From a virus, in IMG/VR virus record IMGVR_UViG_3300010300_000054, positions 1-32,143 of that record: a stretch of DNA of 32,143 bases. One strand, written 5' to 3'. The translations under genes and the position numbers were made by a program. Shown here in pieces: positions 21,312 through 31,795 of the stretch; within the stretch, counting starts at the first letter, position 1, and each line of letters begins with the position of its first letter. The notes beneath the pieces were generated by a model, which made no database searches, was not told where the DNA came from, and saw nothing but the letters and a program-made list of their open reading frames with translations.

Positions 21312-21319
21312 TCTAAATA
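21312..21319 (+). promoter_or_regulatory. Late-promoter-like octamer TCTAAATA
   Basis: TCTAAATA starts one base after the preceding stop codon and lies 28 bases before the 459-residue fibre gene. The same TCTAAATA core precedes the giant fibre gene and the 495-residue protein gene. It departs from the T4 consensus at positions 1-2, so it is a weaker candidate than the ATAAATA sites. Confidence 0.45.
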
Positions 21320-29940: not shown

Positions 29941-29965
29941 GGGGGCCTTCGGGTCCCCTTTTTTT
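29941..29965 (+). terminator. Rho-independent terminator after the giant fibre gene
   Basis: GGGGGCC (29941-29947), TTCG loop, GGTCCCC (29952-29958), then seven T residues. The stem has six Watson-Crick pairs and one G-T pair, and the UUCG tetraloop is the extra-stable form common in T4-like phages. It sits 27 bases after the fibre stop and directly before a late-promoter-like octamer, dividing two transcription units. The strongest terminator in the window. Confidence 0.9.
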
Positions 29966-29972
29966 CTAAATA
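29965..29972 (+). promoter_or_regulatory. Late-promoter-like octamer TCTAAATA
   Basis: TCTAAATA begins on the last T of the terminator tail and is 21 bases before ATG 29994. Its position immediately after a terminator strengthens the case for a real transcription start for the last three genes. Confidence 0.5.
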
Positions 29973-29993: not shown

Positions 29994-31481
29994 ATGGCAA
30001 AGTGTAAGGAAGGACACTATTACTGTTACACTGATAAAAAGTGTAAACCTATCCCTAAGGGATTTAAGGTGGTGGGTCCTGCTGGAATGCTTCGCAAAGA
30101 AAATGGTCACTCAGTAGACGATACTGAAGAGACCAAGAAAAATGGTAATGGTAATGGTGAAAGTGATGTCAGTGAAGCCAACAAAAGTGGTGATTCTTCT
30201 TTGCGTGACTGGTTTGGCAAGAGTCGCTCTAGTGATGGCAAGCCTGGCTGGGTTCAGTTGGGTGGAAAGTATGCAGGAAAACCCTGTGCAAAACAACCAG
30301 GACAAACCACAAAACCTAAGTGTGGTTCAAGTAAGATGAAACGCAATCTTTCTAAAGATGAGGAAGAGGCAGCGTTCCGTCGCAAAAATCGTAAAGATCC
30401 AAATCCAGATAGAAAAGGGAAGGCAATTAACGTGAAGACCGAAGAAACCGTTCTCGAAAAAGCGGGAGAGAAAGACGCTTGTTACCGTAAGGTCAAGTCG
30501 CGCTATTCCGTATGGCCTTCTGCATATGCTTCTGGTGCATTGGTAAAGTGCCGTAAAGTTGGTGCTAAGAACTGGGGAAACAAAACCAAGAAAGAAGAGT
30601 TTGAATTCTCAGATTGGAGATCAGAATTCAAATTGATTGATGAAGTTGCGACTCCCAAAGAAAGGATGCAGTCTTCCATTGAGAGAAGTAAATCAACTTT
30701 GGATATGACTTCGAGTCAGAAAGCTGCATATCATAAAGCAAGAGGTGCAATGATTGCTGCGAAGCAATTGAAAAAAGATGCAGATGAACTGAAAAAAGAA
30801 GAGACAGAATGCAACCATACAGAGAAAGGAAAAGAATGTCCTGTCCATAGACAAGATTCTTGCCCATCTCTGGTAAAGGAAGCAGTAAGTCTGCCAAGAA
30901 GAACTGGTCAAATCATCAAAGCATATTCCTCATGGAGAGGAAAGACTTATATGACCAAGATGTTCTTCCCACAAACTGGTATCCCTTCTAGAACTGAAGT
31001 CGCTGCTCAGATTGAAAAAGTTTATCCTGGATCAAGATTGCTCTCATATATGAAGAGTGATTACGAACCTGGGCAACATTTGCTACATACCGAAGAAGCA
31101 GAAGTTGATGCTTCGGTTCAGCAAAGAAAGCAGCAGATTCAGCGTAAGCAGTTAATGATCAACAGGCAGAAACTTCAGTTGCAAACAAAAGCAACTCAGA
31201 AGAAGAAGCATGATGACATGTACATGCAAACCGAAGGTGCTGCTTGGACAAAAAAGGCAGGTAAAAGTGAAAAAGGCGGACTCAACGAAAAAGGTAGAAA
31301 GTCGTATGAGCGAGAGAACCCAGGAAGCGATCTTAAGGCACCTTCAAAAAAAGTTGGGAACCCTCGTAGAAAGAGCTTTTGTGCGCGAATGAAAGGAATG
31401 AAGAAGAAACTCACTTCTTCAAAAACTGCTAACGATCCAGATAGCAGAATCAATAAGTCCCTTAGAGCTTGGAATTGCTGA
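29994..31481 (+). CDS. Basic, modular Lys-rich protein (DUF5872- and DUF6321-like segments), unknown function
   Basis: 495 residues, strongly basic. Segments in order: a Cys-containing N terminus (CKEGHYYCYTDKKCKPIPKG); a DUF5872-like block at 69-148 (SLRDWFGKS, GWVQLGGKYAGKPCAK, PKCGSSKMKRNLS); a block at 161-196 (DACYRKVKSRYSVWPSAYAS, GALVKCRKVGAKNWG) known as a stand-alone motif in several marine phages and large viruses; an acidic FSDWRSEF motif; a C-x-H...C-x2-H cluster at 273-285 that could bind metal; a W-x-G...YPG domain at 314-346; a Gln/Lys-rich helix; and a C-terminal block at 417-495 (GGLNEKGRKSYERENPGSDL, RRKSFCARMKGMKKKL, DSRINKSLRAWNC) resembling DUF6321. Family names are from memory. 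Its charge suggests nucleic-acid binding or packaging with DNA in the head, which is inference. Its stop overlaps the next start (TGATG). Confidence 0.78.
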   Translation: MAKCKEGHYYCYTDKKCKPIPKGFKVVGPAGMLRKENGHSVDDTEETKKNGNGNGESDVSEANKSGDSSLRDWFGKSRSSDGKPGWVQLGGKYAGKPCAKQPGQTTKPKCGSSKMKRNLSKDEEEAAFRRKNRKDPNPDRKGKAINVKTEETVLEKAGEKDACYRKVKSRYSVWPSAYASGALVKCRKVGAKNWGNKTKKEEFEFSDWRSEFKLIDEVATPKERMQSSIERSKSTLDMTSSQKAAYHKARGAMIAAKQLKKDADELKKEETECNHTEKGKECPVHRQDSCPSLVKEAVSLPRRTGQIIKAYSSWRGKTYMTKMFFPQTGIPSRTEVAAQIEKVYPGSRLLSYMKSDYEPGQHLLHTEEAEVDASVQQRKQQIQRKQLMINRQKLQLQTKATQKKKHDDMYMQTEGAAWTKKAGKSEKGGLNEKGRKSYERENPGSDLKAPSKKVGNPRRKSFCARMKGMKKKLTSSKTANDPDSRINKSLRAWNC

Positions 31482-31795
31482 TGAAATCTTTCAATCAATT
31501 TTTGTCAGAGTCTATTAATATCTCTGGCGACTTCAATGGAAATCTGTACATGAATTCTCAACCTGAAGAACCACAGCAGGTTGGTGAGAGTTATGCTGCA
31601 GATATAATGTGGAATGGTTCACTACATAGATTAGAGTTTACTGCTAATTCTTTACTTTCTAATCAAGAATTATCTGAACAACTTCAAGATGAATATCCTG
31701 GTGCAATCGTACAAAATGTATATCCAGCGCAAACTGGCAACGTAAACATAACCAGTTCGAAAAGATATCATCCCGGAAAATTAGACTGGATTTGA
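31481..31795 (+). CDS. Small protein with T4-like capsid-targeting N terminus, candidate internal head protein
   Basis: 104 residues. The start chosen is ATG 31481, which overlaps the upstream stop (TGATG); an in-frame ATG at 31469 would add MELL and spoil the N-terminal motif. MKSFNQFLSES matches the T4 internal-protein capsid-targeting sequence MKTYQEFIAE-A with conservative changes at every variable position, including the gp21 prohead-protease signature (L-x-E before a small residue). The rest (SGDFNGNLYMNS, YAADIMWNGSLHRLEF, ELSEQLQDEYPGAIV, KRYHPGKLDWI) is a compact alpha/beta domain sharing the W-x-G...E-[VL]-x2-Q-[IL]-x3-YPG pattern with the upstream protein. Predicted role: packaged into the head, processed and possibly delivered to the host. 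The gene is certain; the role is inferred. Confidence 0.72.
   Translation: MKSFNQFLSESINISGDFNGNLYMNSQPEEPQQVGESYAADIMWNGSLHRLEFTANSLLSNQELSEQLQDEYPGAIVQNVYPAQTGNVNITSSKRYHPGKLDWI

Follow-up and report, generated by a model that had tools for sequence, protein, structure and literature searches.

A putative T4-type capsid-targeting sequence on a small protein of Synechococcus myoviruses and on unrelated cyanophage proteins

Introduction

Can the fate of a small phage protein without assigned function be read from its first ten residues? This question is raised by a gene in the DNA analysed here (hereafter the window), a fragment 32,143 bases long that comes from an uncultivated virus. The window carries genes of a T4-like Synechococcus myovirus, including homologues of gp13, gp14, gp15, and gp16, and its nearest DNA matches are the Synechococcus phages S-SCSM1, Sf-CH5/CH8, and S-T4. 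One of its genes encodes a 104-residue protein whose N-terminus resembles the capsid-targeting sequence (CTS) by which T4 sends proteins into the prohead, where the protease gp21 removes it. The T4 proteins Alt and IPI belong to this class: they are packaged in the head, processed by gp21, and injected.

CTS-directed packaging itself is already known from T4. What appears to be new is its scale in cyanophages, with dozens of cargo families, the occurrence of cargo embedded in polyproteins, and an explanation for the enzymes found in cyanophage virions. No paper on CTS packaging in cyanophages was found in the open-licence literature, in which one T4 review mentions both capsid targeting and cyanophages. 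With a probability of roughly 0.78, the 104-residue protein is an internal head protein of a T4-like cyanophage, which is targeted to the prohead, cleaved by gp21, and probably ejected together with the DNA. A common packaging tag of the T4 type would explain how otherwise unexplained enzymes enter cyanophage virions. It would also allow packaged cyanophage proteins to be predicted from sequence alone, so that the injected set becomes directly testable.

The gene and its family

The 104-residue reading frame described in a sequence-only reading of this DNA was confirmed in its ATG, its TGA, and its length (Table 1); the protein begins with MKSFNQFLSESINISGDF. The longest version given by the ORF caller, 108 residues from a TTG at 31469, was rejected. 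M1 is invariant in 42 homologues and the residues upstream of the ATG at 31481 are not conserved, and this ATG is therefore regarded as the conserved start. The protein gives a nearly end-to-end profile match to phrog_1742 (E 4e-44), a family of hypothetical proteins of Synechococcus myoviruses which had no earlier assigned function and to which it belongs. Homologues were found in 135 phage records, nearly all of them Synechococcus myoviruses, and in 368 viral-contig stretches. In relatives, the orthologous gene belongs to the gp16–gp17 region, where it is flanked by the genes of a DUF6321 protein and of a structural protein of the virion; in Sf-FS3, a homologue adjoins the cytidylyltransferase region instead.

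The start codon overlaps the stop codon of the preceding gene, which encodes a basic 495-residue protein, in the sequence TGATG (31479–31483). This arrangement fits co-transcription of the two genes, as had been supposed. Upstream, a terminator-like hairpin divides the pair from the gene before it and is directly followed by the heptamer CTAAATA, a putative late promoter of the kind used by T4-like phages. The window holds four copies of this heptamer (at 21313, 22915, 23822, and 29966), a count no higher than chance predicts. All four stand on the coding strand ahead of a gene; three of them fall in intergenic gaps and the fourth at the end of a gene, a placement as expected of T4-type late promoters.

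Table 1. Features of the two-gene locus, in window coordinates; a slash marks a predicted cut.
Feature	Position	Strand	Basis
Intrinsic-terminator-like hairpin and T-run, dividing the operon from the preceding gene	29941..29965	+	
CTAAATA, resembling a T4-type late promoter, in the gap between the preceding gene and the operon	29966..29972	+	
Basic 495-residue neighbour (phrog_727, DUF6321 at the C-terminus), probably a polyprotein processed by gp21	29994..31481	+	
Candidate gp21 site DVSE61/A in the 495-residue protein	30174..30176	+	
Candidate gp21 site TVLE155/K in the 495-residue protein	30456..30458	+	
Internal paralogue (residues 297-354) of the mature domain of the 104-residue protein, after SLVKE/A	30882..31055	+	hhalign
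Candidate gp21 site MQTE414/G before the DUF6321 domain of the 495-residue protein	31233..31235	+	P1 is E in 16/16 homologues
104-residue CTS-bearing putative head-internal protein, phrog_1742	31481..31795	+	ORF translation, profile match, homologues
Putative capsid-targeting sequence MKSFNQFLSE, residues 1-10; determinants F4, F7, L8, E10	31481..31510	+	Conservation; PMC9026906
Predicted gp21-type cleavage site E10/S11 (FLSE/S)	31508..31513	+	E10 invariant; site kept in embedded domain copies
Predicted N-terminal arm of the mature protein (residues 11-35), with conserved NISGDFNGNLYMN; modelled as mostly disordered	31511..31585	+	
Predicted folded beta-beta-alpha-beta domain, residues 36-82	31586..31726	+	AlphaFold2 model

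The N-terminal tag

The gap-free match to the T4 signal that had been proposed was borne out against the N-terminus MKTYQEFIAEA of IPII and IPIII, taken from the T4 record. The propeptides of these two proteins are identical and that of IPI is similar (PMC9026906). According to the same review, studies with amber suppressors assigned targeting by the T4 CTS mainly to residues 4 and 7 and processing to residues 8 and 10 (PMC9026906). The 104-residue protein agrees with IPII and IPIII at both pairs of positions, having an N-terminal tag of about ten residues with hydrophobic or aromatic residues at 4 and 7, I or L at 8, and E at 10. Among the 42 homologues, M1, F7, and E10 are invariant, K2, S3, F4, and S9 are conserved in at least 90%, and positions 5 and 6 vary. 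In an 82-residue paralogue of Sf-FS3 (L096), the N-terminus MKSFQKFLGE/G retains 8 of the 10 CTS residues at an overall identity of 27%. The degenerate motif occurs once in the window and did not occur in 100 shuffles.

As in IPII and IPIII (MKTYQEFIAE/A), the ten-residue tag combines an aromatic residue at 4 with F7, I or L8, E10, and a small residue at 11; it precedes an unrelated mature domain, and gp21 is present in the genomes of relatives. In contrast to the T4 proteins, packaging is here predicted from sequence comparison, the mature domain has no detectable homology to theirs, and it has a paralogue inside a polyprotein. The sequence-only reading had placed the signal on IPI, IPII, IPIII, and Alt alike. 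With the strict motif, a scan of the T4 genome upheld this for IPII and IPIII, whereas neither IPI nor Alt bears the exact motif; the likeness to these two would lie in the head-internal, gp21-processed class to which they belong.

Spread over unrelated proteins

The motif [KRN]x[FY]xxF[LIVMF]xE was searched in the translated ORFs of nine cyanophage genomes (2213 crude genes, 540,000 residues). It was found 20 times at N-termini, against 0.02 expected at starts, which amounts to an enrichment of about 1000-fold, although the 20 occurrences are not all independent and fall into about nine families; five further occurrences are internal. As a positive control, the T4 genome returned IPII, IPIII, and a 54-residue ORF. 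A TTG-initiated match in P-SSM2 (L098) and a 12-residue match in T4 (L103) were taken as chance. The 54-residue ORF (NC_000866.4, 18969–19130, minus strand; L097) begins with MKTFKEFIKE/D and may represent a further CTS protein of T4.

A DNA-pattern scan of viral contigs yielded at least 83 ORFs with the motif at their N-terminus. Beyond residue 11, they form at least 28 clusters without detectable similarity between clusters, and the first 11 residues are what they have in common. Unrelated proteins sharing this N-terminus, as anticipated in the sequence-only reading, are therefore present in the relatives. Among the carriers listed, Pfam identifies lytic-transglycosylase (DPBB), GNAT acetyltransferase, DUF5661, and DUF6267 proteins, and cytidylyltransferases and a short DUF6321-like protein were recognized by eye.

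Cleavage site and neighbouring polyprotein

The window ends before gp21, and the presence of the protease is hence deduced from relatives: all of the complete relatives examined have an annotated gp21, in line with the homologue that the sequence-only reading had called for. In S-SCSM1, the propeptide region of gp23 contains SFLAE/A, which resembles the site of the 104-residue protein. The site is also linked to the domain where the rest of the tag is missing. In two longer proteins (L047 and L049), the mature part of the 104-residue protein forms the C-terminus and follows NLGE/S, the FxxF half having been lost. Since embedding keeps the cleavage half and loses FxxF, the part of the signal read by the protease moves together with the domain, and the part for targeting occurs at N-termini.

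The same holds for the 495-residue neighbour, in which a diverged copy of the domain known from the 104-residue protein occupies approximately residues 297-354 (hhalign probability 96.9, E 1.9e-10). Across its homologues, the sites before the domain copies have E at P1 in 25/25 and V, L, I, or F at P3 in 24/25 distinct sites, two of the 25 having been re-registered in the alignment, and the surrounding upstream residues vary. Because a diverged domain copy and gp21-type sites at the boundaries occur together, the 495-residue protein is probably a polyprotein processed by gp21 into internal peptides and part of the same system. The earlier idea that it is head-internal gains further support from its S-SCSM1 orthologue, which is labelled a virion protein. 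The DUF6321/phrog_727 family (T4-GC119) shares with the 104-residue protein a beta-beta-alpha-beta domain preceded by a hydrophobic-x-E/ site; it differs in that the domain is internal and usually lacks the FxxF half of the tag. S-SZBM1 encodes a short form (_192) with a CTS of its own, MKTFKQYITE/A.

Comparison gives strong support to entry of the 104-residue protein into the prohead and to its predicted cutting by gp21 after E10.

Predicted structure

An AlphaFold2 model, built with homologues from viral-contig sequences only, has a mean pLDDT of 72, with residues 41-80 mostly at 83-89 by block. It places a helix at residues 4-9 in the CTS, a stretch of low confidence or disorder at 8-32, and a beta-beta-alpha-beta fold at 36-82. 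The tag would accordingly stand outside the folded domain, and the objection that the motif might belong to a conserved fold does not apply to this model. A search of a viral fold library gave relatives together with DUF6321 proteins, among them a virion protein of S-SCSM1, and Foldseek against the PDB gave no fold match at E<=0.001. The top six PDB entries, at E 0.28-0.36, include the RNA polymerase (RNAP) inhibitor Gp2 of T7 (TM 0.71 by target) and the RNAP-interacting YkzG. A Gp2-like RNAP inhibitor was rejected, its Foldseek E value of 0.36 being not significant and hhalign against T7 gp2 giving a probability of 0.2%. The protein has no Pfam match, and the sole match in a PDB profile search (E 0.74) was put down to chance.

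Tag carriers in virions

Other carriers of the tag have been detected in virions by mass spectrometry. The cytidylyltransferase/NMN-adenylyltransferase (NMNAT) was reported from virions of S-SM1 (PMC3037559), S-SCSM1 (ORF91; PMC9602691), and S-CREM2 (gp154; PMC10665884), and in these phages it begins with MKKFSAFLNEA, MKSFLQFLKEA, and MKNFSSFLTEA, respectively. This cyanomyovirus family (T4-GC190) resembles the 104-residue protein in its N-terminal tag and phage group, and differs in its mature domain, a nucleotidyltransferase unrelated to that of the 104-residue protein. In one case, S-PM2, the corresponding domain is joined to another protein and lacks the tag, and the enzyme was not detected in virions (PMC3037559).

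In S-CREM2, 5/5 motif-bearing ORFs are among the 52 proteins detected by mass spectrometry (hypergeometric P 6e-4), a figure obtained with a motif widened after the N-termini of this phage had been seen; with the earlier motif, the count is 3/3 (P about 0.013). The five are the SAM lyase gp6, gp13, the kinase gp14, gp136, and the cytidylyltransferase gp154. A sixth detected protein, gp12 (L236:7704-10313), has near its N-terminus a leader like that of the cytidylyltransferases, with RFASFMAE/A and, further on, AERLGLVSDGHGSY; its annotation as CRISPR-associated Cas9 looks doubtful, and it has no Pfam match at E<=0.01. According to the authors of the S-SCSM1 study, co-purified contaminants were not excluded in virion detections (PMC9602691). 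NMNAT, SAM hydrolase, and kinase recur in cyanophage virion proteomes, whose authors were unable to distinguish them from contaminants (PMC9602691, PMC10665884).

The orthologue of the 104-residue protein in S-SZBM1 (_191) is absent from the 30 detected virion proteins, and that in S-SCSM1 (_30) is without the label "virion protein" in GenBank. Orthologues of both flanking genes carry this label in S-SCSM1; it was taken to denote mass-spectrometry detection, which fits the paper and was assumed for each record. Being unreported in two virion proteomes, the mature protein may be scarce, degraded, or lost from the mature head.

Proposed route and alternative explanations

In the proposed route, residues 1-10 would dock the precursor on the prohead core as a capsid-targeting sequence, and gp21 would cut after E10 to give a mature protein of 94 residues starting at S11. 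This product would consist of a flexible arm (11-35) and the small beta-beta-alpha-beta domain (36-82). We infer that it is kept in the DNA-filled head and probably leaves with the genome at ejection. The 495-residue protein would follow the same path, probably as a precursor of several internal peptides.

The main rival accepts the tag as real and assigns the protein to the prohead core or assembly, in a scaffolding role that ends with its degradation or expulsion during maturation and not with delivery. Its small size, the location of its gene among structural genes, between gp16 and gp17, and the two virion proteomes in which its orthologues are unreported all point this way. However, a merely disposable piece of scaffold would not be as well conserved as the mature domain is (P73, G74, and Y81, among others, are invariant), and virions retain other CTS-bearing proteins that have folded domains; we therefore consider a core role unlikely. 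It is somewhat less probable still that the protein is an injected effector of host takeover or anti-defence, acting on RNA polymerase, restriction, or another defence directly after DNA entry. The tag does occur on host-acting enzymes (SAM lyase, kinase, NMNAT/cytidylyltransferase, GNAT), and T7 Gp2 and YkzG rank among the best PDB folds. Yet those E values are not significant, hhalign finds nothing in T7 gp2, Pfam and PDB sequence searches return no meaningful match, and a domain copy inside a polyprotein fits a packaging or structural role just as well.

The N-terminus could, finally, be the start of a conserved family that resembles the T4 CTS by chance or common descent, and conservation that continues through residues 11-24, without a sharp end at the site, would be in keeping with this. 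Such a resemblance is highly improbable in view of the at least 28 unrelated clusters and the strong N-terminal enrichment, the persistence of the tag in the diverged Sf-FS3 paralogue, and its position outside the modelled fold. Prohead targeting followed by gp21 cleavage and retention in the head is the preferred reading.

Anti-defence and the wider cargo

The sequence-only reading had further raised anti-defence as a function. This suggestion receives no direct support for the 104-residue protein, whose mature domain resembles no known anti-restriction protein in sequence or fold when compared with Pfam, PDB sequences, and PDB folds (E<=0.001); for the cargo set as a whole, it is plausible in the light of tag-bearing SAM lyases. 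The virion-detected SAM lyase gp6 of S-CREM2 (L236:3837-5081) begins with MKDFDSFLEE and matches PF23780 at E 2.3e-19. Two further proteins (L109 and L117), with the N-termini MKTFQEFMVE and MKTFKQFLHE, give weaker PF23780 matches below the Pfam cut-off, and in S-SZBM1_194 (L206:17254-19377) a PF23780 SAM lyase domain follows an internal TYREFIAE/G. A packaged anti-restriction enzyme, in the form of a tagged SAM lyase, is therefore a concrete possibility.

A broader reading, offered tentatively as possible rather than probable, is that in marine T4-like cyanophages the ten-residue CTS serves as a portable, general loading tag for unrelated proteins, with the cargo packed, trimmed by gp21, and injected against the host or its defences, and with the 104-residue protein as one effector. 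The cargo would then comprise NMNAT/cytidylyltransferase, SAM lyase, kinase, GNAT, ADP-ribosyltransferase-like proteins, DUF6321 modules, and cleavable polyproteins.

Some observations on individual carriers may be added. A 216-residue protein (L263:1211-1858) has MKTFSEFIAE/A directly before a domain, RTAHYTSASNKENILKTGF, which looks ADP-ribosyltransferase-like by eye. The same domain recurs in a 419-residue protein (L106:1501-2757) with its own N-terminal tag, where it follows an internal SFLLFITE/A; in neither protein does it have a Pfam match. A DUF3008-like module (MPA..SK.QQRF.GMV) recurs in basic proteins, namely S-SCSM1_93 (L214:5627-5836) and the N-terminus of S-SZBM1_194 (L206). In S-SCSM1_93, the C-terminal end is itself CTS-like, RTFKEFLEYIE.
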